From Periplaneta americana (Eukaryota > Arthropoda > Insecta > Blattodea > Blattidae), in NCBI RefSeq assembly GCF_040183065.1, contig NC_091119.1, positions 60,436,892 through 60,500,891 on the forward strand: 64,000 nt of DNA, in the 5' to 3' direction. The notes below the pieces were generated by a model that had not been told where the DNA came from, made no database searches, and worked only from the letters and a program-made list of their open reading frames with translations. Below, one piece after another: positions 3,351 to 46,132 of this stretch (positions are counted from its first letter, which is position 1; each line of letters starts with the position of its first letter). The translations under genes were made by a program, and so were the position numbers.

Positions 3351-3500
3351 TTTATAGTTAATGGTGGGATTGGTATTTTTAATACAAAGAAATATCTGTG
3401 ATTTTATTGTGTAATAGTAGCGTGTCTGTTTCTAAAATAATTTAACTTAGAGCAACGTTTTTCTACTTATTACAAATTTCAGTAGTGCTTTTGTTATGAA

Positions 3501-21727: not shown

Positions 21728-24564
21728 CAGACATCGGATTCTAGGGTAAATGCCTATTTTGTTTCTTTAGGAGAAAAGTAAAAATAATTATTAATATTTG
21801 TGTTTCATGGAAATTGAAAGGTATTCAAAGAGTTTTGTAGTGCCCTAAAATTCCCTAAAACGGTTATTAGAGCCTAATTTGTTAATATTCGCCTAAAAAT
21901 GCCTAACTCACTGTAAAGTTTCGCATTTTACTCTTACTTTTTATAATTTATACATGCATTCACAGCGAAATTTAAGGCATTTAAAAAGTGGAAAGTTTGC
22001 TTCACACCGGCCATGAAACCATTGATAAAGGAAACAAAATGTTTTGAATCTCACGACACTCGCAATAGATTTCACCGAATTTAACATGTTTGGAGGCATA
22101 AATGCCGACAAAGAACAACCTTAGTTTTGAAGCAGGCAACAATCACAACATGTGCTGCTACCGATTCAGAGATATACTATGCTATAAAAATGACTGTTTT
22201 CGGTCTGAAACCGATTAGCTGTACTGCCCTTCAGAGTGTCATAAAATCACAATTTTTGGAGAAAGAGTGTTTTTGAAATATTTATGAAAAGTCGTAAAAC
22301 TGCGAATTAGTAGGGTAAACCGTTACAAAATATTTAAAAGAATGGGCCTCCTAGTGTTAACACTACCAGGAAATGCAACAATAAGTGGAACTTTGTATTT
22401 TTGTCCAATTGAATCTCAATAACAACGGTTCATTTGAATGCTCGTTAACAGTTGCTCTTACCCTCACCTTATTTGTGTTGAGAAGTTTTGAGCGGTAGGA
22501 CGTTTTCCTGTGAAGTTTAACGCGATAATGCCGAAAAATATAAGTGCAAAATCTACATTGATCCGGCAATGGCTAACAGAATATTCAGAATTCACTTATG
22601 ATGGAAAAATAATATTCTGCAAGATTTGTAGCAAACAGGTATGTAACAATAGTTGAAATATATAAATTCTATTAATTTTAATGAGTAGGCCTATAATATT
22701 TATACATTGACTGAGCTATCCTGAGGTATAATTCTTTTTAAGACCACTACACTTTAACCTTTTAAATTCCGATAGTTAAAGTATTAGCAGGTCATTAAAA
22801 TTTTGATTGTTCGAACCCACTAACTTTGTGATAGAAATACGGCAATACAACAATTAGGATTTTATTTTAATTCAGTTTACTTTACATTTTTAGATTTCGC
22901 AAGAAAAGAAGTGCCACCTAAAGCAGCATGTGCAAGGAGCGGCTCATAAGGCTAAAGCTCAGCAGAAAAATCAACTGCAACAAACTTTACTAACACAGCC
23001 CACTTCATCCAATCTCAGCAGCAATTTCTATGCTGATTTAACCAGAGCGTTTGTTGCTGCTAACATTCCCTGGAATGCAATTGAAAATCCGGTTTTAAGA
23101 CAGTTTTTACAAAAATACTGCAAACAAAATATCCCATCTGAGTCGACCCTACTTAGACAGAATATACAATGAAACTTTAGCTTCCATTCGGGAGGATATA
23201 GGTGATTCTTACATATGGGTCTCTGTGGATGAAACCTCAGATCCTATGAATAGGTATATAGCAAATATGGTAGTAGGAAAACTTAGTCCTGATGGACCTT
23301 CGATTCCACACTTCGTATGTGTTAAGGAACTTTCGAAAGTGAATAGCTAAGCCATTGCTTATTTTGTAAATAAAGGCCTAGTCTTTATACTCAGGTAATA
23401 TAGACGATTCTAAAGTTCTGTTGTTTTGTACTGATGCTGCCTCATACATGGTTGCTGCAGCTCCACTTCTTAAAACATTTTATCCTAACCTCACGCATGT
23501 AACCTGTCTAGCACATGGCCTTCACAGGGTTTCTGAAACAATCCGGAATGAATTTCCTCTTGTCAATTCGTTTATTTCTAACACAAAAAAATGTTTTTGT
23601 AAAGCCCCATCCAGGATTTCAATATTCAGAGAGAACTTTCCAGATATCCCACTCCCACCTCAGCCGGTTGTTACACGATGGGGAACCTGGATTCAGTCAG
23701 TGGTGTATTATTCTAAGTATTTTAAAGAAGTGGTCACAGTTATTGATAAATTACCTGAAAGTGATAGTGCAGCGTGTGTGAAAGCAGTGAAAGATTGTCT
23801 GAATGACTCACGAGTGAAAAACGATATTGCCTACATAACATCAAACTTTTCTTTCATACCTGCAAGCATTGAACAATTAGAACATGAAAAACAATCTCTT
23901 TGTAGCCAAATAGCAATAGTAAAGGAAGCTCAAGTGAACATACATTCTGCTTTGGGCGAAACTGGGAAAAAAGTTAAAAATAAGTGGGACAACGTATTAA
24001 ATAAGAATGTAGGATTTTCATTGTTGGAAAAAGTATCAAGAGTGATATCGGGGGAAAGTGTAAATGTTCCAGTAAGTATTGATGTTTCTATTGTACCTAA
24101 TTTAAAATTTGGGCCTCTCACATCAGTTTCGGTTGAAAGAAGTTTTTCTGCTTTCAAAATGATTCTCAGTGACAAAAGGCAAAGGTTAACTGTGGAGAAT
24201 TTAGAAAAAATTCTGGTGGTGTACTGTGCAGATAATTATAATAAAGTCTGAGCATGGAACTGAATTTCAATAACTTAAAATGAGTAATCTTGATATCAAT
24301 AATCATTATTTCATTAGTTTCAATATATTAAATTTGTGCAGCTCTGTTTATACATATAATATAGTATTCTTTTTTAATGTTTAAACATACTTTTTTGTGC
24401 GTATTTTAGTGTATAATTAAAAATTTCAGTGAAAGAAATAAGTATGATACCTTGATGTGCCTAAAATGCCTATTTTCAATAAAACAGAGCCTAATTTTAC
24501 AAATTTTGAGCTTATTTTAGGCGCCTAAAACTGCAATTTTTAGTGCCTAAAAATCCGATGTCTA
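21728..24564 (+). mobile_element. Complete hAT element 1 with 8-bp target duplication
   Basis: Terminal inverted repeats (C/T)AGACATCGGATT, flanked by identical GTTATGAC (21720-21727 and 24565-24572), the 8-bp duplication of hAT transposons. The 2837-bp element carries a decayed BED-finger/CGGBP1-like transposase gene. It interrupts the Penelope-like element. Confidence 0.92.
22528..24251 (+). pseudogene. hAT transposase (CGGBP1-like BED finger), decayed
   Basis: Exon 1 from ATG 22528 reads MPKNISAKSTLIRQWL and IIFCKICSKQ, then donor GTATGT. Exon 2 after ttttag (about 22893) gives KKCHLKQHVQGAAHKAK, completing a C-C-H-H BED-type finger as in CGGBP1-like proteins. Then VAANIPWNAIENPVLRQFLQ, and in another frame VSVDETSDPM (a catalytic Asp region), VLLFCTDAASYMVAAAPLLK, VTCLAHGLHRV, VVTRWGTW and the hAT dimerisation block SVSVERSFSAFKMIL. 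There are frameshifts near 23140 and 23390 and a stop near 23350, so it cannot make a full transposase. The last 276 codons are intact. Confidence 0.82.
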
Positions 24565-26601: not shown

Positions 26602-26704
26602 GACTATTACACTCTTACTACGTCATACTACTTTTGACCAATAAAACGGTACGAAAGGACGTATTTCAACCAATCATGGCTGCTTATCGCACAATTTTAT
26701 CGCG

Positions 26705-26780
26705 TCCCTAGCATTTGTTTAATTTTATCGCGTCCCTAGCATTTGTTTAATTTTATCGCGTCCCTAGCATTTGTTTCTTT
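26705..26780 (+). repeat. Triplicated 30-bp unit
   Basis: Three tandem copies of TTTTATCGCGTCCCTAGCAT plus TTGTTTAA inside YR-repeat copy 1. Other copies of the family have one or two. Confidence 0.85.
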
Positions 26781-26822
26781 GTTTGCCAACATTTGAAGCA
26801 GCGCTGGTCTGGACGTCACAAA

Positions 26823-26826
<4 letters not shown>

Positions 26827-26875
<49 letters not shown>
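26827..26875. repeat. (TA)n microsatellite
   Basis: About 49 bp of TA inside YR-repeat copy 1. Confidence 0.95.
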
Positions 26876-26881
<6 letters not shown>

Positions 26882-27859
26882 CAAACCACTCCAGTCGATG
26901 CACAGCAGTTTCAAATATGACTCGCATTGGCATTCAACAACAAGAATTAATAAAAATCACTGATCATACCTATGCATCTTCTGAAATCCGATTTACAAAT
27001 AAATGAAGAGCACCATTCGGAAATCCTAAATAAGTTGAATACACCATGTAGGCCTAAATCAACGAGTTCCACTTCTATTACGCACACGTCCAATATAACA
27101 TCAATTGAACCACCAACCACATTCAAATTTGAAAACTGTACATTCAATAATTATTCCTTTTAAAATTATTCATTCGGAAATTCTGAATAAGTTGAATACA
27201 CCATGTAGGCCTAAATCAACGAGCTCCACTTCTATTACGCACACGTCCAATATAACATCAATTGAACCACCAACCACATTCAAATTTCAAAATTGTACAT
27301 TCAATAGTTATTCCTTTTAAAATTATTCATGTTTATTTTTTATGTCATCGTCGTTAATTAAAACTTTTCTAACACTTGTGTATATTAGTTAGGTTATGTT
27401 ATAGCTTCTGCTATATGATATTATGGATAGTCACGTATCAGAGATTGTTTAATATTAAGATTTATTGGAAATCATCTGCCAAGTGACGTTGATTACTGGG
27501 ATTCGGATAATTGAAGTGGAATGTTGCATTTTAATAAAAATGAAACTGAATCAACAAAGTCTTCTTGACTAGTAACATTGCCATCGTGTATAATAGATCG
27601 AGAACTTCTCAACGAGAAGGCATTGCTCACTACTGCCATCTAGCATGCATTTAGCGTAATATTTGTAATGTTGAGATGGTACAATAATACATTTGAAGAC
27701 AGTTGTATTTTCATAAGTCAATTAATATTTTATTGTATTGGAGTACTTCGTTACTTCTAATCTTTATATACTTTTTTCTAATCGTGTAATAATCAATTAA
27801 ATCCCACTCGAGTTTTGATTTTCTCTAGATAAATAAAAACCTCTAGTGAGATTACTGTT

Positions 27860-28509
27860 GACTATTACACTTTTACTACGTCATACTACTTTTGACCAAT
27901 ACGAAAGGACGTGTTTCAACCAATCATGGCTGTTTTTACTACAATTTTACCACATTTCTAGCATTTGTTTATTTTCATCACTTCCCTAGCATTGTCAACA
28001 TTTCAAACTGCAAATTCTTTACGGTACCGGTACTATAAAACATGCTTTGCGATCGTCATTTGTTACCCTGCATAGATAATCGACTGAAAATGGCGGGGCT
28101 CTGTTCAAACTTTTTGGTGAAGGTAACATTAGTGAAATATAATTTTAGTAAGTCAATTGATATCTATTTTATTTTATTATAGTACTTTATTTCTTCTAAT
28201 CTTCATATACTTTTTCTGTTTTTATTACCTTCCTACCATTTGTTTCTTTGTTTGCCAATATTTCAAACTAAACATTCTTTACTGAACTGTAAAACATACT
28301 TTGCGATCGTCATTTCTTTACCGCATAGATAGTCAAGTGAAAATGGCATCTCCGTTCAAACGTTTTGGTGAAATAGAATTTTAGTAAATCAATTAATATT
28401 TTATTGTATTAGAGTACTTTATTTCGTCTAATCGTATAATAGTCAATTAAATCTCACTCGAGTTTTGATTTTCTCTAGATAAATCGAAACCTCTAGTGAG
28501 AATACTGTT
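27860..28509 (+). mobile_element. YR-repeat family, copy 1b, directly abutting copy 1
   Basis: Begins GACTATTACAC immediately after the ACTGTT end of copy 1 and ends with the same hairpin and ACTGTT. It lacks the recombinase piece. It has two imperfect copies of a segment containing ATGGC(A/G)... followed by GTTCAAAC(T/G)TTTTGGTGAA, possibly the start of the parent ORF (MASPFKRFGE in the second copy, about 28342). Confidence 0.7.
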
Positions 28510-28764
28510 GATTATTTTACCCTGACTTTTGGTGATTAAAATTGTTTCATTTCGGTCAATATTACAAAAAACAGTTTCGTGCATATTTTGTATCCTAAAG
28601 AAACTTGAAAAGGAATAAAAAAACATTTTTTAAATTATTATTGAAACAATTGTTTAGAATTCATTTTAAGTTCCAATAAGTCAAGTATCAACAAATAAAA
28701 AAAACAGATAATGTTCAGTCATATGACTTATTTTTAATGTAAAATATTATGGTAGTAAATTTAC

Positions 28765-28835
28765 ATTACATTATTGATATTGTGAACGTTTTCGCCTAAT
28801 CTAGGCTCTTCAGACATAAATGTGTTAACAAATAC
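28765..28835 (-). ncRNA. Third hammerhead-like motif
   Basis: Minus strand: CTGAAGA (28813-28807) directly followed by stem II GCCTA-GAT-TAGGC, then GAAA and the self-complementary AACGTT, then C as the predicted cleavage base (28784). Stem I pairs TGT/ACA and, after an internal loop, ACATT/AATGT. Core and stem II fit the consensus without insertions; stem III could only form well in a dimer, as reported for some retroelement hammerheads. No Penelope-like coding sequence was recognised next to it. Confidence 0.6.
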
Positions 28836-28839
28836 AAAG

Positions 28840-29433
28840 CATGTTGTAGTTAAAAAGTTAAAAAAAAACATTATTAAAGATGGAAGATAAAAAACTAATT
28901 GTACATGTGACATCACTACATGTTGTATAAATAATTATGTATATTTAACTAAGTATGTGGCGATGTTGTGCATAGTAGCACGGATAATTATTGAGTAATA
29001 TAAACATGAACAAGGCAACCTGATTTTGTGAATATAAAAAAACTGTTATACGACAAAGACTTGTTAAATGTGCATATTTTTACATATGTAATAAGTTGAA
29101 ATATATGATAGTTGATAGTGATGTTAAAAAAACTATAATATAGTATGATGAACTGACCCTGTAATTAAAAAGTAATTTGATTGAAATCTACTTAGTAATG
29201 AATTAATAAAGTATAATTTTTACATATAAACATACAATTTTTAATATAATTTCTAAACTTAACTACTTGATATAAGATGTTCTAGCGATTAGTTTTATGC
29301 AAAACTCAACTCATTTTAGTATGTTGATACAATTAGTCTTTGTTCACTTGTCTAAGATGTACTTCACGTTTCAATCAGCAATGTGCAGCTATCATATATA
29401 TATCTTCCATTATTCTAATATAGTTAAAACTTT

Positions 29434-29471
<38 letters not shown>

Positions 29472-29769
29472 TTATTTTGTTTATTAATAGTAATATTCAA
29501 AAACTAAACCTTTTTTCTTATCCATTTTTTTCTCATTCAATTCTAGATATTTCAATTATTTTTCCATTCTAATTTTTTTGGTAAAAAAATGATGCAGACC
29601 TATTTGTCTTTGTAACTTTACGTTATTATCATTCATAAGTTTTCTTATAGCTATATCTTTATTCATTTGTAGGAACTTTTCATTTATAAATTTCATCCGT
29701 ATATCTTTTGTATAATGTTATTCAAAAACAATATGAATGTCATCGTCTCTTTGTCTAATAAAATATAGA
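28840..29769. other. AT-rich, no gene recognised
   Basis: Contains a (TA)n run at 29437-29468. The frame at 29297-29572 is Phe/Ile/Tyr-rich low complexity. Confidence 0.4.
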
Positions 29770-30085
29770 ATAAATAATACAATGTGATAAACTCAAAGAA
29801 AAATGTAAGAAGTCTGAAATTGATTTACGTAAATAAATATATGACTGGTGTCTAAAAATCTAAGGAACGTAAAAATATAAAATAAATAATACAATGTGAT
29901 GAACTCAACGAAATGCGTAATAAAATTGAAGTTGATTGACGTACATAAATTTATGATTGGTGTCCAAAAGTCTAAGGAACGTGGAAATATAAAATAAATC
30001 ATACTCAACGAAATACATAATAAATTTCAAGTTGATTGACATAAATAAATTTATGACTAGTATCCAAAAATCTAAAGAACGTAAA
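29770..30085. repeat. Three tandem copies of a 90-115-bp unit
   Basis: Units start near 29770, 29877 and 29993, each with ATAAAATAAAT, AACTCAACGAAAT and CTAA(G/A)GAACGTAAAAA. The divergence is enough that these are not recent. Confidence 0.8.
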
Positions 30086-30423
30086 AAGCACACAATAGAT
30101 AACAAATAGAGATGAAGTTAATTGTTTTTATGTTTAATAAGTCTTTGTATCGGTGAGTATGTGTTTCGTTATTTCTCTAAATAATTGCAACAACTACGTT
30201 AACACTCGCAGGTGTTTATTTCCTGTCCTTCTTACTATTAGACCTATATAACATTTTTATTGCCTTTTTCATAGTTTTTTTTTACTGTGTGGTTTTGTGA
30301 TTGCTATTAGGTGTTCGTCCTAATGAAGGGATAGTTCAGTATGCGAAGCTAAAATTGCTAGGAAAACATGCCAAGGATGTTGCAAATGCAATAGAAAAAT
30401 CATTTCAAATCAAAATGTAATAT

Positions 30424-30427
<4 letters not shown>

Positions 30428-30471
<44 letters not shown>

Positions 30472-30758
30472 GTTTATTTAACCTGGCAGAGTTAAGGCCA
30501 TATGGCCTCATCTAACACTCAACCAGGAGTAAAACTGCGTTACAAAAAACACTACAAATTTACAAAGCACACTACAATTTTACACATAAAACTGAATAAG
30601 ATAATAATAATAATATAATGTAAACAACTAGAAATCAGACATAATATATAACATACAGAAAGAAAGGAAAAAGCATAATAAAATGTGAAAAACAGGTCAA
30701 AATAAATGAGACATACAAAGTATAAAAAACAAGACAATTATTGATAACAATAATGATA

Positions 30759-30794
<36 letters not shown>

Positions 30795-31385
30795 GTAATA
30801 AAATAGTGAAGTACAAAGCATAAAATGAATACAATATTTTTAGGTACACACAGTAAGGAAAATTCAATACAACACTTGTCATAACAGTAAGTTAGTTTGG
30901 CAACTCGTCGTAAGATAATTTTCTAACTCGGATTTGAAAGATTTCAAAGTTCGGCAGCCCTTGACTTCAGGAAGCAGAGAGTTCCAGTGACGAGAGGTAG
31001 CAACAGTGAAAGATGAGGAATACAGAGAAGATGTGTGAAGTGGAATTTCTAGCGTGTTATCACGTTGTGATCGAGTATTAATATTATGATAGCGAGAGAG
31101 AGTATGAAAACGGGCGAATAAATAAGAGCTGGATGAAGTGTGCATAATTTGATATAAGAGAGAAAGCGAGTGCAGATTTCTCCTCTCATGTAACCTAAGC
31201 CATGATAACTTCTCGAAAGAAGGTGAGATATAATCATAGTATCGAACATTACATTTATGTAGTGTATAAAGATCTAATTTTATTTTGTTGAAACATATAA
31301 AAGGTTTAGAACACCTACTACAGTACACTGAAGTGTTGCGGGCTGCATTCGGCAGTGATTCGGCGCTACCTATTGCTTTGATCAT
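30428..31385 (-). mobile_element. Jockey/CR1-type LINE 3' end
   Basis: Minus strand reads YYDYISPSFEKLSWLRLHER, LHSLSLLYQIMHTSSSSYLF, NINTRSQRDNTLEIPLHTSS and FTVATSRHWNSLLPEVKGCR, then stops at 30879. This is the conserved tail after the reverse transcriptase of many insect LINEs (RR..H.LSLLY.I, WN.LP..I..). About 400 bp of 3' UTR containing CCAGGTTAAATAAACC leads into an (ATT)n tail at 30428-30471. The 5' part is missing. Confidence 0.8.
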
Positions 31386-31486
31386 ACACAGTTATGTTCA
31401 TTAATCAGTGAAGTGAGATGCTACCTTAGTTCATACAATTTTGCAAGCCTGGGTGAATGTCGTGATGTAATATATTCTGTGTTCTC

Positions 31487-31693
31487 TTATAGGCTTGTGT
31501 GCGGGCGACACTTGTGACACAGCAGCTCCCCAATGAAGGCGAGGATCGAGGCGAGGATCCCCAGGTACAGCAGATACAGGCTGCCCTCGATGTGGCGGTA
31601 CTGCAGCTTGGTGGGTCCGTGGTCATCGCTCGAGCTTCTACGACTCTGCGTCACAGCCCGCTGAACGCGCATGGGCAGGAAGGCGCTCACTAC
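31487..31693 (-). CDS. IR exon G: last transmembrane segment and stop
   Basis: Acceptor acgtgcgcag|GTAGTG in phase 0; 68 codons plus TAA at 31489-31487. It encodes VVSAFLPMRVQRAVTQSR, KLQYRHIEGSLYLLYLGI, LASILAFIGELLCHKC and an eight-residue tail. H(I/V)EG..LL.LG......F..EL is the usual IR TM3. The frame is open further upstream to an ATG, but that part is intron because exon F joins directly at Q|VVSAF. Confidence 0.83.
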   Translation of the reverse strand, partial: VVSAFLPMRVQRAVTQSRRSSSDDHGPTKLQYRHIEGSLYLLYLGILASILAFIGELLCHKCRPHTSL

Positions 31694-34600
31694 CTGCGCA
31701 CGTACCAGTTCACGGTAACGAACCATTCTAATCTCTCTTATGTCTGCCTGTATTGGTCCTAATTTTTGGGTTATAATGTAGAGTAAGAAGAAAATGATAT
31801 CTTCAAAATACTCGTATGTTTAAGATTCCTACAAATGATTAAAACTAACTCTAATAGGATATAATCAGGGATAGGTATTTATGGAGATTGAGACAGGGAA
31901 ATCAAAAACTCCCTAACTCCAAAAAAATTATTATTTCTCTTACTAACTGTAAATATTATACATTTATCTATTAATATTGTGTAAAGTTACATTATTTATC
32001 AATTAAATACTTCAAAACCTAAATTTTTACATTATCTTAGGCTACAATTTGAAATAAACACTGCTGGAGTTAGTGGTTTTCTGACTTCCACAGTGTATGA
32101 ATTAAGAAAAGTGAATAAATATAAGCCATGTGAAGAAAAAAATATAAGTATATCATAATTCACCTATGAAACATTGGAATATACGAGAAAATGGAAGTTT
32201 ATTATTAAGATTAACATTGCTACATTTTTTTTTAAATTTCAAATATATGAGACAGACAATCACAAATTACCATAAAGCACATCAAAATACACAAATAAAA
32301 CTACAAACAATATTTAAATGTTAACACAGTCTCATTCATGTTACAGATTCTGTTTTTTTTTCTCACTCTCATGTTCTTCCTGTGCATCTAGATTCTAGAT
32401 TATTATTGTCCGCAAACAGAGTTTGATAATACATCCTACTTTCCTCAGAAATAAACTGCATTAAATTTTGCAAGTCCTTTTGCTATCTTCTTTCAATGTC
32501 AACTTTAGTTGAATGGGGAATGATGCATCTGTATTTGGTTTCTGAAAGTTAATCGACTCGATATTGTGCCTATAATAGTCTTACTTACGTGGATTTTATA
32601 GAGTTTTGTGACATTCTGAATACCGTATCGTATCCCTTTACTCAGCTGGTTGAGCGATAGTGTTGCCACCTACCGGGAAATGGAGCTTGGAATGCAAAAA
32701 CTCTCTTATTCCGTGGAGTAAGTGGAGTTCTGACTTCCACGAGTTTTAAAACAGCCCCCAGAATGCAGAATGTCGATATTAGTGTATTCTTGCCTTCCAC
32801 GCATGCGGGACAAACTAAAAAGCACCATCCAGCCCATAACTCAATTTTGTCAAAAATTGGAGTTAGTGGGTTTTTGATCTCCTGTCTCATTTGATGAAGG
32901 AATGATGATTTGTTTGAATGCTAAAGTCATTGTGGATGTAAGCTATAATTAGTAGTATTCTTGATTGGATGAAAAAATGGATGCTGATTTGTTTGAATGT
33001 TGAATGTCATTATGGATGTGAACAATAATGAGTATTATTCTTAATTAGAATTAAAATTTAGTCGTATAATTGTATATATGAACCACTTTTTTTTAGTATT
33101 ATATAAAATATGTTTGTACGCACTAACTAGAAAACAGAAGATGAGAAAAGAAATTAATGACGTGTACAGTATATTTAAGTATAAAAATGTAGGGATGCTA
33201 TTTGGAATTTCAAAATCGAGGTGATTGGGGGTAAGGGGTGAAATCTAAAATGTAATTAAACCTGGTTTCAGATTTCTCTCTCATTATCTAAATTCACGTG
33301 TTTCTGTTTAAATTGAATTAAATTTAAATAAATTAGTTATTAAGACTGGGAAGTTTTGAAATGAAAGCCGTGTATGTGCAGTAAGCACCTTATAATAACT
33401 CTATTGGCGGCTGGGGTCGTAGCAGTAACGTCGAAGAAAATGTGAAATTTCCCTTCATCCTCCGATATTTTCCACCAAAATTATAATTGCACCCAATACG
33501 AGACTAACGGTTACACTGAACTGCCGGAGTATAACCACAGTCTAGTATATACAGTCGCGAAGCTCAATACGTAGTAAATATATTTGCAAATATATATGCA
33601 GACATTAGATAGTTGCTCACCACTAGGATCGCTAATATCGCCTGATTACAGGCAATGCAAAATAGTACCGTCACAGTCTATTGTTTCTAGCACCCTCAAA
33701 ACTCGAGCTTCGTGACTGCATATAGTAGACTGTGGTATAACCTTAAATTTTCGAATGTTGCATTATACAAAGAATTTATTATGGATGTCTACGCAACAGT
33801 TCTACGCTGCAGATTACCTGTTCCTCCCATTTGAGCATAAGGCCCGAGTCCATGAGCCGGTGGATGAGTTTGTTGAGTCTGACGATGTAGGGCGAGCCCT
33901 TGCGCACCATAGTGGGCACGTACTCGTAGTACAGGTCCTGGTTCATGAGGCGCAGCTTGGTGGACACAGCCTTCTCAGTGATGTAGTCCCCTATGGCGTA
34001 GTGCCCTGCGTGATAAGAACATAAGCAATAGTAACTATATTACAATACAAAATTGAGAAATGCTTTTTACAAAATCGAGGAAAAGTTTGAAAAACGAGCA
34101 GAGCGAGTTTTCAATTTCCGAGATTCTGTAATACACTTCATAAACGTATATTGTACAACATTCTTTGCATGATCATATTTTTAAAATTACAGATACAATA
34201 TACTTTGTATTAAAACTTTGAGTAACATTATTTCTAAGCCTTCTCAAAACTGGACTGTAATGGTAAGTAAGTAACAATAAATGCACTGTAATGAGTAGAT
34301 AGTGGATGCGGGATGACTTATCGTTGAATGTAGGTGCACATCTACCATATGTTACATTTTTTTTCATTCAGACCATTGGCTCAACAGGTTTTAAACGTAA
34401 AAAAATGACGTCAACATGCTACTGTATCTCCGTACAGTCAGAAGGAAAAGAAAAATAACGTACTGTAGTACTGTAGTACATACCATGCAAGTTCAGTCCT
34501 AGTCACCATTGATGCAATTACCAGCGTTGCAGTAAACGACGATATATTCTCGTAAGTTGTCGAACTGAATCGTCTTCGCCTATCGCTTAAACAGGTTTTG

Positions 34601-37600
34601 TATCGAGAGAATTTCTGAAGAAAAACTCTAAAATGGGGATCACTCAATTTCTTTAGAGGAATATTTGCACTGAGCATCATGTTGCACGTGTCGTTTAGAC
34701 CCGCACAACTAAACGATGATGATGATGATAATGGTTCCTCAGATTTCATTTCAATCCATTTTCTGTGCGATGTACTGTTTCTCTATAGCCTGAGTTGTTC
34801 TGGTTTGTATTTCAATTTTACATACATTACACACGATATTGTCTTCGTTAATACATAAAATGTCACTCTCATACTTCTTAATAGCATTTCGTATCTCTAA
34901 GCGAATTTAACGTTTTGACTTCGACATTATGAATGGATCAGCACTACACTATTCAACGCGTTGCGGATTCCTTCGTTATGTACGCTGCTGTACTCGCCAG
35001 GTACACAAAAGACGGACGACGCGGCACATGCCATAAACTCCGATACGAAACAACTTCACTTTTCCTTAAGTCATCCAGCATACACAGTCTGGAAATGAGT
35101 CTATTTCAGTACTGTTATGTAGAAAGGCTTTCCTAGCAACAAGTTTCTGTGTGGGAATTCTAATTTTTAAGACCTTAAACAATAGCTGTAAATACAGCAA
35201 AAAACACGATCGTGCAAAACCGTCAATAAGACTTCATGAGACAACTAAGTCAGGAGGTAATGGGATAGAATGGCCAGTTCCGTTTTCCCTCCATTGCATA
35301 CATCGCTGACTAGTAACATATTACAATAATCGGACTTCAGAAAATGGATATGTTTCTTAATTAGAGGGAAAGATACAATATTTTAATCGAAATATCTCTC
35401 TACAGGAGACAAGATATTTGGATTTTTGATAACCATCCTGGATGTGACAAAGATTAATTTATTAGGTTATTTTACGATGCTGTATCAACATCTCAGGTTA
35501 TTTAGCGTCAGAATGAGATGAAGGTGCTAATGCCGGTGAAATGACCACGGGGTCCAGCACCGAAAGTTATCCAGCATTTGCTCGTATTGGGTTGAGGGAA
35601 AACCCCGGAAAAACCTCAACCAGGTAACTTGCCCCGACGGGGATTCGAATCCGGGCTACCTGGTTTCGCGGCCAGACGCTCTGACCGTTACTCCACAGGT
35701 GTGGACTGTGGCAAAAATATAGAAAACAAGATAAGCCAAGGAAGAATAGCAATTAAGCAATTGAAGAGATAAGAATGATATAGTTCTAAGCCACATACAA
35801 AAAATTTTACAGGAGAGCGTATTAAAGGTTTAGAGTACAATGTTATCATAATTTCTTCGGAGTATACTTATGTTATTTGTTGAGTAATTTTTTCAATATT
35901 TTACTACGTAAGAAATTAACTTACACAGAAAACCATTTTCGTTAAAATGTGGCTTTGGACTATCTCATTCCCACCCCTTCAATTGTATGGTTTATGATGG
36001 AGTAAAGGACTGAAAAGCCCCGCGCAGTAGCATCATGGTCTAAGACAGCGGTCATCAGCAGTGGATGGCTATGTATCTATTAGCTCTACTTTAGGGCAGC
36101 GCACCTCCTCCACCTCCAAACTCCCCTATAGCCTACATCAGGGCTTCACAAATGCTCAAAATTGCACGCGCGCAAATAGCAAGGCAACAGTACAGTGCAC
36201 GGTGCAACGAGGTAAAGAGTACTGCTGTGAGTTATCCAAATACATCTTCCGCGAGTATTGCAGTAAGTCAAGGGGGCGGAACTAGACGGCGGAGCCTGAG
36301 TCGAATAGTGTTGTTTAGATAAATAAAAAAATAACGTTTGTTATGTTTGGTTAGGCTATATTAGATAAATAAATTGTTAGGTTGGCACAGCATGTAAAGA
36401 TAATTGTGTGGTATCGATCACTGAACTGAGCTTAACTTGTTTATTTTAAGTTTTACTCAATTTGTATATGTGAACGATATTTTTCTGTCTTCAAGTGTAC
36501 AAAAACAAAATTGCGGTCGAGTATTTCAGATGCTAATTTAAACCATATTCTCAGGGTTTCTGTCAATCATGCTTTGTTCCTGATATAACTGATATTATCA
36601 ACAGTAATCTCACTAGAGGTTTTGATTTATCTAGAGAAAATCAAAACTCGAGTGGGATTTAGTTGACTATTACACGATTAGAAAAAAGTATATAAAGATT
36701 AGAAGTAACAAAGTACTCCAATACAATAAAATATTAATTGACTTACGAAAGTACAACTGTCTTCAAATGTATCTTCATCTCAACATTACTCTAGATGGCA
36801 GTAGTGTTTTATGGTTAGCTGTTTCCTTGTTGTCAGTTGTGCCAACTATGGAATCTTCATTGAACTCTGTGGACGGTTACTAGTCAAGAAAGCTTTGTTG
36901 ATTCAGTTTCATTTTTATTAAAACATTTGCATTCCACTTCAATCATCCGGATCCCAGTAATCAACGTCACTGGACAGATGATTTTCAATAAATCTTAGTA
37001 TTAAACAATCTCTGATACTTGACTATCCATAATATCATATAGCAGAAGCTATAACAAACATAACCTAAATAATATAAACAAGTGTTAGAAAAGTTTTAAT
37101 TAGGGATGATGAAATAAACAAGAAAAGTTTTAATTAACGATAATGAAATAAAAATAAACATGAATAATTTTAAAATAAACACTTATTGAAAGTACAATTT
37201 TCAAGTTTGAATGTTTTAGTGGTTGATGGTTCAGTTGATGTTACATTGGATGTGTGCCTAAAAGAAGTGAACTCGTTGATGTACATGGTGTATCCCTCAA
37301 CTTATTCAGGATTTCTGAATGGTGCTCTTCATTTATTTGTAAATAGGGTTTCAGGGAAGATGCATAGCTATGACCAGTGATCTTTATTAAATCTTGTTCT
37401 TGAATGCCAATGCGAGTCATATTTGAAAGTGTTGTGCATCGACTGGAATGGTTTGTAATTTTATGTTTTTTGATGTCTAGACAAATGCAGTTTGAAATGT
37501 TGGCAAACAAAAAACAAATGATAGGGTAATGATAAAAATAAACAAATGCTAGGGATGCTATAAAATTAAACAAATGCTAGGGACGCGATAAAATTGTGCG

Positions 37601-40600
37601 ATAACCAGCCATGATTGGTCGAAAGAGTCCTTTCGTACCGTTTTACTGGTCAAAAGTAGTGTGACGTAGTAAAAGTGTAATAGTCGCAAAAACAACGAAA
37701 GAAACATCAATAGGCTACGTTTTATGTTAAGTGTTATGTTTCTGTCAATAAAAAAAACATTCAACTTAGCTCAATACACTTACTGTTAAATATTACTTAA
37801 TAAAAACAAAAATTTTACATAAATATGTAACTTACATTTATTTATTTCGCCGTCACGTATACAGTTTGCACTGACAGCCCCTCAGTTTTGTTTTGTTAAT
37901 GCACGCGCGAAGTGCACTGCGCGGTGCAGTGCACTCTGTGAAGCACTGGCCTACATGATCCTTTTATCTTTCCACGTAGGCCTCACCGCGGTCCCTCAAC
38001 CCCGGTCTCACGAGTTACCATGAACCCAGTGAGAGCCCACGGTGCAAAGCGCTACCACCAACAACGAATGATCACATACATATCCACAAGGTCAAAGTTC
38101 GGCGCGGTCCGCAGCCGACTCAACATTGGAGCAAGCCCGGAAACGAAAGAAACGGAGATGATGATGATGATGATGATGATGAATGAGGGGGAAATGTAAT
38201 TATGATGGCGAAATGAATCCGAGGTCCAACACCGAAAGTAACTCAGCAATTCTGCTTCGATTGGTTGAGGGAAAACTTCGAAAAAAATCTGAACCACGTA
38301 ACTTACCTCAACAAGGACTTGAACCCGAACCCGAACTCGTTTCACGATTAGACGTGCTAATCATTACTCCACAGAGGAGGACGAAATGGATGACAGACTT
38401 TGTCTTTATGAACGACATTTTGATGCGTACGAATGACCTATACAGGGTGTTAAAAAGTATCCAATATTTTAGGAGGTGATAGTATGCATCAAAACAAGAC
38501 AAAATTGTCTAATAAACATGGGTCCTACAACACATACTTTCTGAGATCTGAACACTTGTTCATAGGAAGTGTTCAATGTGACGTCTATTCGTGACAATGG
38601 ATTCCTCTGCCCTTCGGCATAAGGAATCACGCAGTCTTTGAAATTGACCTGGTTGTTCTTGATAACCAAAAGTCTAGAGGATTTAGGTTTGGGGAACGAA
38701 CAGGCCAAGGTGTGGGACCTTCCCGATCAATCCAACGGTCCTGAAATGTCAGCGTCAGGTGTTCACACACATTACGGAGAAAATGTGCTGGTGTGTCATC
38801 GTGCATGAACCACATCTGTAGTCTTTGCTGACATGGCACATACGCCAGCAAGGAAAGTCCTGATAACGATCCCCAGTTAATCTCTGTGGTAGCACTATGG
38901 CTCTTAATCTATCACCAAGAACGCCTGCCCAAACGTTGATTGAGAATCGGTGCTGATACCTTATTTCTTCAACTGCATGGGGATTTTCATCAGCCCATAC
39001 ATGCTAATTACGAAAATTCACAACACCATCTCTGCTAAACCCTGCTCATATCCGCAACGAAACTTTTGCTTTCAGTATTCCTTGCGACGCATCAGTATTC
39101 CATCAATTACGGTATGATTATCTGGTAGTCTGCTGTATTGTAAGGCAGAGGAATGCATTGCCATAAAGGGATGTCACATTTAGCACCTCCTATGAAGAAG
39201 TGTTCAACTCTCAGAAAGTATGTGTTGTAGGACCCATGTTTATTAGACATTTTTTCTTGTTTTGATGTATACTACCACCTCCTAAAATATTGGATACTTT
39301 TTTGACACCCTGTATAGTTCATGTTACCATGTTTTTTTGCAACATTGTCTTCATATTGTGCCGGTTCCTAATAATAAGTAATGCAGGTACTTAGGAATGA
39401 CTCAGATTGGAGCATGTGACTAAGGCATCTGTTAGACATTAGACATTCTAGTATAAAAGACAGAATTACAGTGAAGTGAGGCTGAAACTAAAACTTGCCG
39501 GCCGGTAGTCGCTCGATGGAGAAAGCAGTGTCCCCCATGAAGGAGTGCCTCTCCATATCCTCGCTCTTCATGACGCGGAATTGTGAAGTTATGTGGAGCG
39601 TCAGTGGGTCGCGGCCCTCACGGAGAGAGAACATCCAAGCTGGGTGCGTTGCGGCCCACGGGATGTTGCTGGCTGCCAGGTCGGGCACTGTCTCTATCGG
39701 ATGTCCAAACCTGTGACATTTACCATGTTCATATTTTACTTTATATTGCAGTGGTGATAAGTTCAGATGAAGCACGAATAAAAGCTTGTGGTAAGATGTG
39801 ACTGACAATTCTGCGACGCATTTAATATGAAACGTGAGTTTTCTTTTCTTTTTTTTTTTGCTAATTTCGGCAACGCAGCCTGAGGCTTATTGTACAAGGT
39901 GCGGCAAAGGAGTTGCACGGTTTTTAAATGACTATTACACTATTACTACGTCATACTACTTTTGACCATTAAAACGGTACGAAAGGACGTCTTTCAACCA
40001 ATCATGGCTGCTTGTCGTACAATTTTATCGCTTTCCAAGCATTTTTTATCACTACCGTAGCATTTGTTTCTTTGTTTGCTAACATTTCAAACTGCACTGG
40101 TCTGGACGTCAAAAAACAGAAAATTACAAACCACTTCATTCGATGTACAGCAGTTTTAAATATGACTCGCATTGGCATTCAAGAACAAGAATTAATAAAG
40201 ATTATTGGTCATAACTATGCACCTTCCCTGAAACCATATTTACAAATAAATGAAGAGCCCCATTCGGAAATCCTGAATAAGTTGAGGAATACAGCATGTA
40301 CATCAACGAGTTCCACTTCTTTTACGCATACGTCCAATATAACATCAACTGAACCACCAACCACTAAAACATTCAAATTTAAAAGTTATACCTTCAATAA
40401 TTGTTCCTTTGAAATTATTCATGTTTACTTTTTATTTCATCGTCCTTGATTAAAACTTTTCTTGTTTATTTCATCATCCCTAATTAAAACTTTTCTAAGA
40501 CTTGTTTATATTATTTAGGTTATGTTGTAGCTTCTGCTATATAATATTATGGATAATCACGTATCACAGATTGTATAATATTAAGATTTATTGAAAATCA

Positions 40601-43600
40601 TGTCAAGTGAGATTGATTACTGGGATCCGGATGATTGAAGTGGAACGCAACTGTTTTAATAAAAATGAAACTGAATCAACAAAGCCTTCTTGGCTAGTAA
40701 CCGTCCACAGAGTTCAATGAATATTCCAAAGTTGGCACAACTTATAACAAGAAAAGAGCTAATCATAACACACTACTGCCAGCTAGCGTAATATTTGTAA
40801 TGTTGAGATGGTACAATAATGCATTTGAAGACAGTTGTATTTTCGTAAGCCAATTAATATTTTATTGTATTGGAGTACTTCGTTACTTCTAATCTTTATA
40901 TACTTTGTTCTAATCGTGTAATAGTCAATTAAATCCCACTCGAGTTTTGATTTTCTCTAGATAAATCAAAACCTCTAGTGAGATTACTGTTAAAATAGCA
41001 AAGTGGTTATGTACATCAGAACAAATTTATTAATGCCGAAAAATCTGGCTATGTGTGCCATTTGGAATTCGTACATAAATTCCATTCATTCATTCAAAGG
41101 AGAAGAGAAGTGAAGAAGACTAAAAGAAGAGCAGACAAGGAGAAAATAATGATAGGTTAAACGTCAGAAGAATGAAGTAAAATAAAGGAAGAATGGAGGA
41201 AGGGAGAGAGGGAGAAACATAGAAATAAAGTAAAGGAAGATGAGAACACATTTGTCTGCACCTTGGCACGGTGAGGATGGAGGCGAGGCCGCTGCCGTAG
41301 CTGGTGGTGATGAGCAGGAACATGATGGTGAGCCACACCAGCACGTGTCTGTTCGGACCTTCTAGACGTGTGGAACGGCGCTCGTCGGGCGGCGTCTGCA
41401 GAACGAGTAGGCCCAGGGCGTTGAACGCGCAGTCCCCCAGCGAAGTGTAACGCTGCGACCCCGCTACCGACACCAACTCTGCGTACAGAATGTTACTTGT
41501 ATTCTATGACAGTAGAACTCAGACTTCTTCATACCATCTTTTCAATCGATCTGTCAAGAAGATCTTGGGCAAATCGCAATATAGCGAACGTAGAAACTCC
41601 GCCCACGACCCCTTCCACTTTTCCCCTACTAGCTCACTAGACACTCTACGTGATAGGCGAGTGCTGTGTCGAATGCACATTTCATGTGGGCGGGGATAAC
41701 TTCCCCTACTGGCGTTCGCTATATTGCGATTTATCCAAGATCTTCTTTAGATATTCAAATGATACCAGCCAGAGTTGTACACGTAATTTATGAACACACT
41801 ATCCCTGTTCCTGCTTTTAAATTTTCATAGCAGTCTTATCTTGCTTCTATACCAAGGATATTATTAATAGCATCCTAAGCATTCTTTCATGTTTTATAAT
41901 ATTTTTTGTTGATCTATCTGGATTCATATATCTTCTGCCCATTATCACGAACATTTTCTTTTAATTGCTTTTTATTGTTCACTTCTGCACTGGATTAAAA
42001 CTACATGCATAGACATTTCGGTAGCCCGCGCTACGAGCGTGCTAAACTAGCCCCGGTTATCGAGTGATTACTTGTACAGGATTCATATTATATCATATCG
42101 CTAACACTGGTTTATGAATACGAAAAACGTTAGTTCGCTGAACATCCACCGGAAGCCCGCGCTAAGAATGTCTATGAATATAGCCCCTAGAGTATTTTAA
42201 CGTTTTAACTCTAGAAAGTGTTATAGTTTTCTTTTATGTTAAATTTTTGTTGTTCCTGACGTATTATTATATTGCGGACAAGGTCTCTCAAGGTAGGCCT
42301 ATATGTAGTTTGCTATGCATCTTTAAAAGCACAATTCTGTCTACTCTATTTTTTGTGTTTAATTTAAGGGTCAAATTCAATTTTCATAAGTACAAACATC
42401 GCCAATATTGTAGAAAATGTTTAGCATTATATTCTTCCTTGCTTTATACTTCAAAGTTACTTGAATTGTTCCACATATTTGTTGTACTTGTATAATTTCT
42501 GTTCTAGATATTTCCATACTCATAAGATACACTGCCTAAATAATTGAAAGTGTGGAGTTCTTCCATTATATTATTATTTAATACTATTTTGGGTTTTCTG
42601 GATGTTTTCCTCTGAAAGCCATCATTTTTGGATTTACTGCAATTGTAGTTTTAAGAACTTCTTGTAAATCAAAAGTATCAGTTTTAAATTGACTTCAGAA
42701 TCTGTAAGAATTACTTAATTGTCAGCAAATAGCACAGTACAGTCAACTCTGGATATAGTGAACTCAGTTATAATGAACCTAAATCGTTGGTCCCGACCCA
42801 CATACATTAAAAAGTACATTAATATTTCCGTTTATAGTGAACCCTCGCTTCGCTTATAGCGAACCTTGTATCCTGACAAATTCTTATTTGAAGTCAGACC
42901 TTCTTGTATAAAATTTAAAGAATGTCTTGAGAACAATATTCTAAGTTTCTTACGCCTTTAGTCAAAGGACAAAGGTAGGATTAGTGACTCCTAAGACAAT
43001 GAGCTATGCTGTAAATCCACGCAACGCGTGACGACCTTGCTTCACTCCACCGTCGAAGGGTTCTTAGGCACACTACTCTTCCGTTATTTCTAATCCTCTA
43101 CCGTCAAAGGCTTGCCTTTTGTTCCCAGAAACATTTCCATTATGACTGATAGCATCGAAACAACGGAAAATGGCATTGCCTTCTTTTTTTAAAAGGGAAC
43201 GGACATTATGTCCACAGCACAAACGAAGGTAAGATTTCGATGGCTTTCAAACTCCATCAACGCTCTCTGTTTCTATTAAGTGACCCGGGAAATTCCAACG
43301 CTGAGTACGCAGTCACACCATAACAGCGTTTGTCATTTCTACCTGATCTAGTGTTCCAACAGTGAATGTACTGTATAAAAATGTTGGAGCATAGTGTTTT
43401 CTTTGGAAGATAAGGCGAATATTATAAAGTGACATTGAACATAGTCTTTCGCAAGCGGAAGTGGGTCGAAGTGTAGTTTAAGTAAATCAACTGTGAGTAA
43501 CAGTATACAGTTTAATCATTCCACAAAAATGAAATATTTTATTTTCTTGTTCACAATTCCATTCATTTCTATCATTTAAGGTTAGGAGAGAGACACTTCG

Positions 43601-46132
43601 GATATAGTGAACGAAATATGCAAGTCCGCAGAGGTTCACTATATCCGGAGTTGACTGTGTTTAAAACTACTGACCCTAATTTAAAATTATACCCCAGCTG
43701 TTAGGTGATTCTTTTGAATAGCTCGTCTATATAAATAAGGTAGGAGATATGGGGCCGCTTTGCCTCGCTCCTTGCTTAATTAATTAATTTCCTTGAATTG
43801 ATTATTAGACAATACATGTTATTCCTGCACTTATAACTTTTATTACTTTCATCAGGCGTTCTAGATATCCTGTAGTTTTTCCGTACTCTATTTCTGATTA
43901 ATAGTATACATAGCGCCTGTACACATATATAATATACGTATATTCCGTCACGCTACAGCCCTATAAGGGCACAGACCGACCAGCCGAATGTTGGCCACAT
44001 ATTCGCATGTCGAAGCAGAGGTGGACGATCATCCAGCCAGATTGGAGATATCATGTGGTTAGCACGGTGATCCCTCCATCCGTTCTAGATGGCTTTCTTA
44101 ACCGGATTTCACTATTTATCGTAACTCGCCAAGTATATAACGATGCTTGATGGGAACCGGTCCCATAAACTGGCCGAAATTTCGTGAGAAAATTTCCTTC
44201 CCCATAAGGACTCGAACGTGAGTCCTAGGCAGAATGCCTTAGGTCATGGCGCGGGACCTATTTCTGATTACGAGCTATTCCATCTCATATCGATCGAAAT
44301 ATAGAGAAACTTGACCTTACAATTTCTAAATACAAATACATTTTTTTTGTACATAGAGAACTGTGATACAATGCTTTGTGCAAAGTTTGAGGCATCAGAA
44401 CTTCATTGTGTTTAAATTTAAAATATTTAAATTTATCGTATTTTCATAAAATTAGCAACTTTCAACTGTTGTAGCTCCGAAACCCTTTCACCCAATGATC
44501 AAAATCATGGTTTATTTTCTTGCTGAGAAATTAAAGTTTATATTGACATATAAACAGATTTTCTTACTTTTTATGGAACTGGAGAAATTTAGATTTTTCC
44601 TCATTAAGACGCCTTTGGCTAGGAAGAAATATTTTTAAAATATATACAGTAGTAATTCTACATTGAAAGTACAAATAAATACATATTTTTTACTGATGGT
44701 ATGTTGATAAGAAAGTATTGAAAATATCAAATAAAAAAAATTATAGTACGCGCGTGAAGTAATCAGCTGACTGTAAGACGGGAGCTTAGCCGAGATAAGC
44801 AAGGCCAGAAGACAAACACGTGATGTGTCGTCTAGCAGTCATGGCTGTGCTAGCTTTATCACAGGTTTTCATAAACACAGGAGTAAAATGACGCCCAACG
44901 CTCGCTTATCTTCAGCTGTCGGCCAGTGCGTGCGGTACTGCTCCGTTCAAGTCTAGGCGTGTGAAAATAATCTATTTAATACCCTCGAAACTTATTGCCG
45001 TACCACTAAGCAAACAATGCCGAATCCCTCTTAATAATGCAAGGTTTTTTCTCAATATTTTTTTTACATTTTTACAAATGGCCAAAATGCCTAAAAGTAA
45101 GTAAAATCAGATTATCTGTCTCTCTGTATACAATAAAAATAAGGATTACTTCTTAACATAACCTACCAAATGTCAGCTTCAAAATAAGCTCTCGCTCAGT
45201 GTTCTGCAGTAAATGGTTCCAGAGTTCTGAGCGCTGAAAGAGGCTTATTTTTATAAAATACGCAAAATTTGTCGCTCAATAATACGAAAACCGTTTGACT
45301 TTCGATAGTATATTTTTGAAAATGCACTCCTCTCAGCACCTTGTATAAGTAGGGAAAAAATTAGAGTATAAAAAATGCGAGGTTTTTTACTAATCGATTT
45401 CATATGGAATAGCCCTTACCATGTAAATCTTAGGAGTATAAAATAATCGTACTGTAACGTTTGAACTCTCTTACCGGAGAACATGTCTGTTGCTTTGGTG
45501 ACAAGGAAGAGGGACAAGGCGGCAGCTATCACTGAGGCACCCACTGCGGCCCAGCACGTGAGTGTGAAGGGCAGGATGGGCGTGAGCCACCCGGGCAGGG
45601 GCAGCGGGCGGGGCGCCACGCACGTGATGCCCGTGCGGATGTAGGGCACGGAGTAATCCACGAAGTGGTACTCGTAATTCCACAGGTAGATCGCCCCGTA
45701 GCCCAGCTCGGCGCGGTCCTCCGCCACGGCCCTGCAGCCACCAGCGTCATCATTATCAAGGTATCATCACAGTCTACTATATACAGTCACGAAGCTTGAG
45801 TTGTGAGGTTGCTAGGAACAATAGACTGTGCCGGTACTATTTCGCATTGTATGTAATGAGGCGATATTAGCGATCCTAGTGGTTACCAACTATCTATGGA
45901 TGCATATTTACTATGTATTGAGCTTCGTGACTGTATATACTAGACTGTGGTATCATGATAATCCAAGGACGTAGTCAGGAAATGAGCAGAAGGGACATCC
46001 CATGTCAACTCAAATGCTGAAATTTATTAAAAAATTGATATAGTCTACACAGTGGCGTACGCAGAATTTTGTCAAGGAGGATCATTATTAAAATTGTTTA
46101 TAATTTACATTAACGACATTTTAAATGTAATA

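Follow-up and report, generated by a model that had tools for sequence, protein, structure and literature searches.

A probable Crypton-type DNA transposon with DIRS1-like ends and its internally deleted derivatives in Periplaneta americana

A 64,000-nucleotide stretch of the Periplaneta americana genome (NCBI RefSeq assembly GCF_040183065.1, contig NC_091119.1, positions 60,436,892 to 60,500,891 of the forward strand), here called the window, contains four copies of one repeat family, designated A, B, C, and D. Copies A, B, and D lie on the plus strand, and copy C on the minus strand. All four begin with GACTATTACAC at the 5' end and carry the complement of this motif about 65 bp inside the 3' end, followed by a hairpin and the terminal ACTGTT, as the original prediction had described for this region. 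The copy coordinates given there also held, with the addition that 36600-37685 is read on the minus strand; the internal complement has one mismatch in copies A and B. All results come from this one genome (a 3.23-Gb assembly of 91 contigs). The sequence and structural analyses suggest that the four copies arose by internal deletion from a Crypton-type DNA transposon (CryptonA-like, DUF3504-related), whose ends carry a DIRS1-like internal complementary region (ICR). We put the probability of this reading at roughly 0.87.

Copy A (26602..27859, plus strand) is a non-autonomous derivative that retains the 3' portion of a tyrosine recombinase (YR) gene, with a broken frame. Its left end GACTATTACAC (26602..26612, plus strand) pairs with the internal complement at 27784..27794 (minus strand), which forms the left part of the ICR. 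The right ICR part, the hairpin loop, and the right end occupy 27795..27859 (plus strand). Copy A also contains 28-bp tandem repeats near its 5' end and an (AT)n run. The 28-bp unit (AATTTTATCGCGTCCCTAGCATTTGTTT) is present three times in copy A and more than 20 times in another locus (L034, 663-1416), so the element carries a satellite seed. Copy B (27860..28509, plus strand) follows copy A head-to-tail. It has the same ends as A, C, and D, but a different interior, and represents another kind of derivative, in which the YR half is absent and the start of the YR gene is kept. The interior consists of two units with a TATA-like stretch and an ATG start codon. The first start-codon unit (28090..28137, plus strand) has a disturbed frame; the second (28343..28384, plus strand) reads MASPFKRFGEIEF and a stop. 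The internal complement of copy B is located at 28434..28444 (minus strand), and the right ICR part, hairpin, and right end at 28445..28509 (plus strand). The 3' flank of copy B (window 28510-28650) matches the 3' flank of another copy (L003, 2595-2740; GATTATTTTACC...), which might reflect two insertions at a single site of the same host repeat, or else an extended element.

Copy C (36600..37685, minus strand, 5' end at 37685) and copy D (39930..40991, plus strand) are derivatives with an open YR C-terminal half, and are 87% identical over their length. The internal complement lies at 36665..36675 (plus strand) in copy C and at 40916..40926 (minus strand) in copy D; the right ICR part, hairpin, and right end lie at 36600..36664 (minus strand) and 40927..40991 (plus strand), respectively. 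The subterminal inverted repeat is 11 bp. When folding was compared with shuffles, the 3' 65 bases of the four copies folded better (z -2.6, -3.9, -4.9, and -4.6). At one mismatch or less, GACTATTACAC has nine matches in the window (eight within the copies and one at 3409), against 1.3 expected, and this count was reached in 0 of 100 shuffles. Chance repeats were rejected, on the motif count, the 3' folding, the shared structure, and the genome-wide candidates described below.

The original prediction placed half of a tyrosine recombinase in three copies. The half is present in A, C, and D, but it is open in only two of them: copy C (37295..37462, minus strand; KITNHSSRC ... ITGHSYASSLKPYLQ ... 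NKLR) and copy D (40120..40287, plus strand; KITNHFIRC ... IIGHNYAPSLKPYLQ ... NKLR). In copy A, a 2-bp deletion shifts the frame, and the GH motif reads DH. Between C and D, the YR half has 15 base differences, 10 of which change the amino acid. Considering these changes and the frameshift in A, no selection on the fragment is visible in the window copies. The pattern HxxR..GH..Y occurs three times in the six frames of the window, two of them in C and D, compared with 0.23 per mononucleotide shuffle. Taken alone, the fragments have weak database support: they matched Pfam PF00589 with E-values of 0.0056, 0.01, and 0.1, none of which reaches the Pfam cut-off; the matches extend to profile position 170-172 of 172. 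In the PDB search, Cre was found at E 0.6-1.8, which is not significant, with the HxxR motifs in register; this register was read with the residue roles that we take to apply in Cre. The copy D fragment gave one unrelated PDB match (E 0.4). No useful match to the copy C peptide, the hairpin, or the full YR was found in viral contigs, and the plasmid search gave nothing useful; in genome contigs, 31 pattern matches to the full YR were obtained, none of which was confirmed.

A fragment confined to a few copies had been named in the original prediction as the case that would speak against it. The YR half is not limited in this way: for the sub-family with this half, the copy C DNA query gave 5,835 first-look candidates (40 scored, 46 matches), which are candidates and not confirmed copies. 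A 56-amino-acid (aa) copy C peptide gave 12,192 first-look candidates (150 scored), also unconfirmed as copies; this query runs from a point before the YR half to ...ITGHSYASSLK and thus includes a part of that half, without the tyrosine. The copy B interior gave 1,322 first-look candidates (40 scored), likewise unconfirmed as copies. The open HxxR..GH..Y stretch is kept in 25 of 36 aligned copies of the A/C/D kind. For the B type, 35 start-codon units were collected from the fetched loci. Their majority sequence is MAAPFKRFGEGNISEI, which runs into the common 3' part, and which we take to be the N-terminus of a Crypton-type YR. Thus, A, C, and D appear to keep the 3' part of one YR gene and B its start, and all four copies would be internally deleted derivatives of a single transposon family. 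A parent with a MAAPFKRFGEGNISEI-type start, the known C-terminal half, and these ends was expected before it was found. Among the 150 scored peptide matches, three of the five with the longest open frames proved to be ordinary derivatives. Tandem arrangements are also present, as 6 of 66 element starts directly follow an element 3' end; the head-to-tail junction is ACTGTT/GACTATTACAC or a near form.

Full-length parents were found by a Pfam DUF3504 search of the genome (27 matches among 43 candidates; 0 of 14 control prokaryotes), from which 12 loci (L084-L095) were cut out. Six of them (L087-L091 and L095) are complete elements of 2,027-2,068 bp with 96.8-99.7% identity. They start with GACTATTACAC (GATTATTACAC in L089) and finish with ACTGTT. 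The longest open stretch is 410 aa in L090 and L095, 338 aa in L089, and 322-323 aa in L087, L088, and L091. The L090 element (2,068 bp) holds a single open reading frame of 398 aa, from ATG to ...FKFENCTFNNCSF. The N-termini read MAAPFKRFGEANISEI in L089 and L095, MAAPLKRFGEANISEI in L090, and MATPFKRFGEANISEI in L087, L088, and L091. The proteins begin with MAAPFKRF, MAAPLKRF, or MATPFKRF, followed by GEANISEI, which matches the start expected from the B-type units. Two further loci, L093 and L094, have the 5' end, and no 3' end within the excised piece. Together with L081, they have a YR frame that is cut at one point (...TPCTAVKRKS) and joined there to one foreign sequence; this type is perhaps a third derivative class.

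The L090 protein matched DUF3504 (E 6.1e-10) and Phage_integrase (E 5.4e-6; 26.7 bits, cut-off 27.1) in Pfam, with two other matches at E 0.14-0.17, and chain 9hjt_H of QRICH1 (E 8e-4) in the PDB. No Rep/helicase or reverse transcriptase domain was found by Pfam in this 398-aa protein. The original prediction had asked for an autonomous full-length parent and for what it encodes; the six parents encode a YR, with no Rep/helicase detected by Pfam in the L090 protein. It had also left open whether the mixture of features belongs to one element or to a capture. Since the parents combine the same ends with a complete YR gene and no other Pfam domain in the protein, the mixture belongs to one element. 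The R, HxxR, GH, and Tyr of the parent YR align with those of two bacterial Xer-type proteins from the same assembly (L061 and L062); the R-H-R-Y residues are assumed to have their usual catalytic roles. L061 and L062 are XerC/XerD-like frames on a single contig (C85), which is probably a bacterial sequence from a symbiont or contaminant. Five CryptonI-type proteins were included in the alignment. Four of them show R, HxxR, GW or RW, and Tyr, and the fifth (L078) deviates in both the first R and the Tyr. The parent YR thus appears to be a complete DUF3504/CryptonA-type YR, the group being assigned by family match alone. The CryptonI families of this genome were rejected as parents, as they have only 17-25-bp matches (E 0.2-0.8) to the present family, designated family A.

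The insertion target was derived from 29 left and 30 right flanks of the window copies and L002-L028. Flanks consisting of another element end were dropped, and L027, which has two starts, entered the left count twice. The left flanks show T (26), T (23), and A (18) at positions -7 to -5, and T at -1 in 25 of 29. The first five bases on the right are G (27, with A in 3), A (30), T (17), A (25), and A (27). The target TTAnnnT^GATAA is a short inverted repeat around a 6-bp centre, a layout that a YR site can have.

Empty sites were searched by comparing the joined flanks of 55 copies with all other fetched sequence. Seven of the 55 matched across the join, and five were informative (L008, L018, L021, L028, and L040); copies A and B were uninformative, as their matches were the second record of the copy itself (L041) or the copy with the same 3' flank (L003). 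L008 lies within a sibling copy, in its hairpin loop; the corresponding empty form has GA and reads TTTATCTA|GAGAAAATC (62 subject matches). The single empty relative of L028 has GA. L021 and L040 represent separate insertions into one host repeat at an identical position. Both now read GATAAA, whereas the empty relatives of this repeat read AATAAA or AATAAG, and one further relative is gapped there. The first base after the cut therefore seems to come from the element. There is no DDE-type duplication and no T^T at the empty sites, which is clear in L008, L021, L028, and L040. A DDE transposon with a 2-bp GA duplication was considered and ruled out, because L021 and L040 have GA where the empty relatives have AA. 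In L008 (1474, 1500) and L053 (1323, 2492), a copy was observed inserted in inverted orientation in the hairpin loop of a sibling copy. The loop TTTTCTCTAGATAAA is target-like on both strands and may serve as a landing site.

Near its 3' end, the element contains an internal complement of the joined right and left ends. The left part of this ICR, GTGTAATAGTC, pairs with the left end, and the following ~30 bp pair with the right end as the hairpin. An ICR score was calculated for every copy with both ends defined, with 500 Markov shuffles each. The scores are 28-42 in family A (6 copies, 4 of which share flanks), 46-66 in CryptonI family Ia (7 copies of 12 loci), and 60 and 55 in CryptonI family Ib (2 copies of 3 loci). 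In 14 of the 15 copies, no shuffle out of 500 reached the score; in L089, with its mutated left end, it was reached by 3 of 500. Other stretches of the same elements score 20 or less, except for L066 (84), which is longer than the rest. The first test in family Ia, on L065, in which the ICR is partly missing, gave 29 against a shuffle maximum of 27. Nucleotide similarity is negligible between family A and the CryptonI loci, and between Ia and Ib; the right ends are TACTGTT (A), TACTATT (Ia), and TACTATT (Ib). The CryptonI-type loci (L063-L080) comprise several families, with YR frames of up to 396 aa, and head-to-tail pairs of family Ia were seen in L069 and L076.

A second CryptonA-like family, A2 (L086 and L092), has ACGAAATAGTC in the position of GTGTAATAGTC. 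If this belongs to an ICR, the A2 left end, unseen at that stage, is predicted to be GACTATTTCGT. A search for the 17-base form, allowing up to three mismatches, covered the window and all loci. Among the matches listed, the first 11 bases of the predicted end were exact in L086 at 589, 1.1 kb before the YR half, and chance 17-mer matches at three mismatches occurred in L062, L063, and L080. The exact 11-mer occurs three times in 694,156 bases on both strands: at L086 589 and in the two ICRs themselves. In L086, the next 100 bases can be aligned to the leader of family A with a score of 47, which was reached by 0 of 500 shuffles (their maximum was 37). The A2 left arm pairs at 11 of 11 positions, as in family A, and three of the pairs differ on both sides between A and A2. 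The right hairpin of L092 is paired at 22 of 24 positions, including G-T pairs. Single-strand folding of the 5' end with the last part of the element was also analysed in L090, L095, L063 (ends cut one base off), and L077. Both ends pair on the ICR and adjoin each other, and the core between the two arms stays open. With only the 5' end shuffled, the fold loses about 8-11 kcal/mol on average, and in each of the four copies none of 100 such shuffles reached as low an energy.

These features suggest a possible mode of movement. The YR would join both ends into a circle junction, ...GAGATTACTGTT/GACTATTACAC..., with the expected sequence ...GAGATTACTGTTGACTATTACAC..., and would recombine this junction with the target by exchange around T^GA. 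The ICR may act in one of two manners: it might be a splint that aligns both ends in a single-stranded copy and forms a folded recombination site, as has been proposed for circle formation in DIRS1, or it might be a second, inverted YR site used for excision or copying. The latter might flip replication, as inverted YR sites do in the yeast 2-micron plasmid. For the former, integron attC sites offer a parallel, as they are folded single-strand sites of tyrosine recombinases; a single strand of the present element could similarly form a duplex-like YR site in which the core is unpaired. The fold here differs from attC in that it would join two transposon ends. We lean to the splint, with less than even confidence in its general form, because the left part of the ICR is short, exact, matched by paired changes, and in splint order. 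As the non-autonomous copies have kept the end sequences, they would use the parent YR in trans.

Several points weigh against this interpretation. All of the evidence is sequence, from which movement, circles, and YR activity are inferred. The ratio of nonsynonymous to synonymous change (dN/dS) is 0.3-0.97 in the six pairs of four parent copies, with few changes, so selection on the YR gene is not clear. Four of the six parents (L087, L088, L091, and L095) have near-identical flanks, of which the last 50 bp are also found in L093 and L094. These four may be one insertion multiplied by a larger host repeat, and so do not count as independent in the ICR scores. At the cut, the relatives of L018 differ, with GA in L031 and TT in the one within L021. 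The core between the arms of family A is not complementary (AATTA vs TACTGTT), unlike the 3-bp junction of DIRS1, and the circle-junction arms show only partial symmetry. When the loci were scanned without set boundaries, L072, L078, L079, L086, and L092 gave no ICR, and the top match in L078 was a TAA microsatellite. The scan recovered families A and Ib but also missed family Ia (L063 and L064), so its blanks say nothing. For A2, L086 supplied the end and the ICR and L092 the right arm, which L086 lacks, so the family had to be assembled from two loci. Swapped end-ICR combinations of A and A2 still pair at 8 of 11 and 10 of 11 positions with G-T allowed.

Three other explanations were weighed against a Crypton-type element with its own ends. 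The copies could be non-autonomous helentrons (HINEs) that captured a Crypton gene or its fragments and are moved by Rep/helicase in trans. The published anatomy of HINEs fits well, with subterminal inverted repeats 38-60 bp from the 3' end, a 3' palindrome, and central tandem repeats (PMC4067079), and the helentron resemblance pointed out in the original prediction stands as far as shape goes. It fails at the insertion sites, where the cut is T^GA inside TTAnnnTGATAA and not T^T, and the empty sites agree. Moreover, the YR gene of the full-length copies is complete and constant in position and orientation, and Pfam detects no other domain in its protein. The same layout is also found in two CryptonI families of unrelated sequence and in a second CryptonA-like family with diverged ends, so repeated capture is not a ready explanation. 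On the target site, the empty sites, and the parent, a helentron with a captured YR was judged very improbable. Only slightly better is the chance that the family is a DIRS1-like retrotransposon that lost its reverse transcriptase, with the ICR as a relic or serving reverse transcription in trans. In DIRS1, the left and right parts of the ICR are likewise complementary to the left and right ends, near the 3' end, and there is no target duplication (PMC3266345). The 2.07-kb parents hold one long frame with only YR domains by Pfam, and long inverted terminal repeats are missing. The YR is grouped as DUF3504-related in one family pair and as CryptonI-type in two other families, so the reverse transcriptase would have to be lost more than once.

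More weight, though still as an unlikely explanation, might be given to an ICR that has no role in end joining, and that is a second binding site or a cruciform regulating the YR or ending transcription. Terminators and regulatory cruciforms are common, and the 3' hairpin alone accounts for the complementarity to the right end. Such a role leaves aside that the left end is also complementary, beside the hairpin arm and in joined-end order, in four families. The energy lost when the 5' end is shuffled, and the three base pairs changed on both sides between A and A2, also speak against such a role.

Elsewhere in the window, the minus-strand frames at 45416-45763 and 51423-51896 resemble, by eye, parts of ionotropic receptors, and the minus-strand frames at 23382-24251 and 58023-60758 resemble hAT-type transposases.

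How the ends of Cryptons are marked and how these elements move is poorly known; here, ends, target, and cut are defined from sequence. Kojima and Jurka (2011) compared 50 copies drawn from a single CryptonI family and its derivative, and section 8 of that paper reports no terminal repeats for animal Cryptons (PMC3212892). A curation guide of 2022 gives a short direct repeat as the only distinguishing end feature of Cryptons, and describes the ICR for DIRS (PMC8969392). The ICR of DIRS1 was described by Piednoel et al. (2011), with the circle junction as the proposed integration substrate (PMC3266345), and the origin of DIRS1 from a Crypton and a reverse transcriptase is an open proposal (PMC6681497). 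In the available parts of the open literature searched (PMC3212892, PMC3266345, PMC4157794, PMC5753468, PMC6681497, PMC8969392, and PMC8498967), no report of Cryptons with terminal repeats, hairpins, or ICRs was found; subscription reviews and Repbase Reports were outside this scope. If the ICR is general, it would be a structural character linking Cryptons and DIRS1, would help to locate Crypton ends and the many small derivatives (first-look candidates number in the thousands here), and would give a concrete model for end joining by a YR-only transposon. We tentatively suggest, with less than even confidence, that animal Cryptons generally carry a DIRS1-like ICR and move via a single-stranded copy, folded with both ends paired on the ICR into a site like those of integrons and recombined into the target; that the ICR is ancestral and was inherited by DIRS1 when a Crypton gained a reverse transcriptase; and that some elements annotated as miniature inverted-repeat transposable elements of the HINE/DINE type are really Crypton derivatives.

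In comparison with known systems, the present family resembles CryptonA and CryptonI (PMC3212892) in being a YR-only element of about 2 kb, with a DUF3504-related YR with R-H-R-Y and abundant non-autonomous derivatives. It is unlike the reported animal Cryptons, as far as that account goes, in its subterminal inverted repeat, 3' hairpin, and internal copy of the joined ends, and the target preference with short inverted arms defined here goes beyond the account in the same source. The ends described for HINEs by Thomas et al. (2014) are similar in outline (PMC4067079). Helentrons, HINEs, and DINE-1 share with it subterminal inverted repeats, a 3' palindrome, central tandem repeats, and microsatellites, with the HINE subterminal repeat 38-60 bp from the 3' end and the present one at about 65 bp (PMC4067079). 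Unlike helentrons, the six full-length copies found with these ends encode a YR and not a Rep/helicase/endonuclease, and the target is T^GA within TTAnnnTGATAA and not T^T. Subterminal inverted repeats with a 3' hairpin therefore need not mean a helentron. Unlike DIRS1, the ~2-kb element has no reverse transcriptase, RNase H, or gag by Pfam in the L090 protein, an 11-bp subterminal repeat only in place of the long inverted terminal repeats (66-316 bp), and, in family A, a junction core that is not complementary. The family is like DIRS1 in its YR, its ICR near the 3' end that is complementary to both ends, and the lack of target duplication (PMC3266345). These comparisons suggest that a Crypton variant linking Cryptons to DIRS1 is real and, within the literature searched, new.

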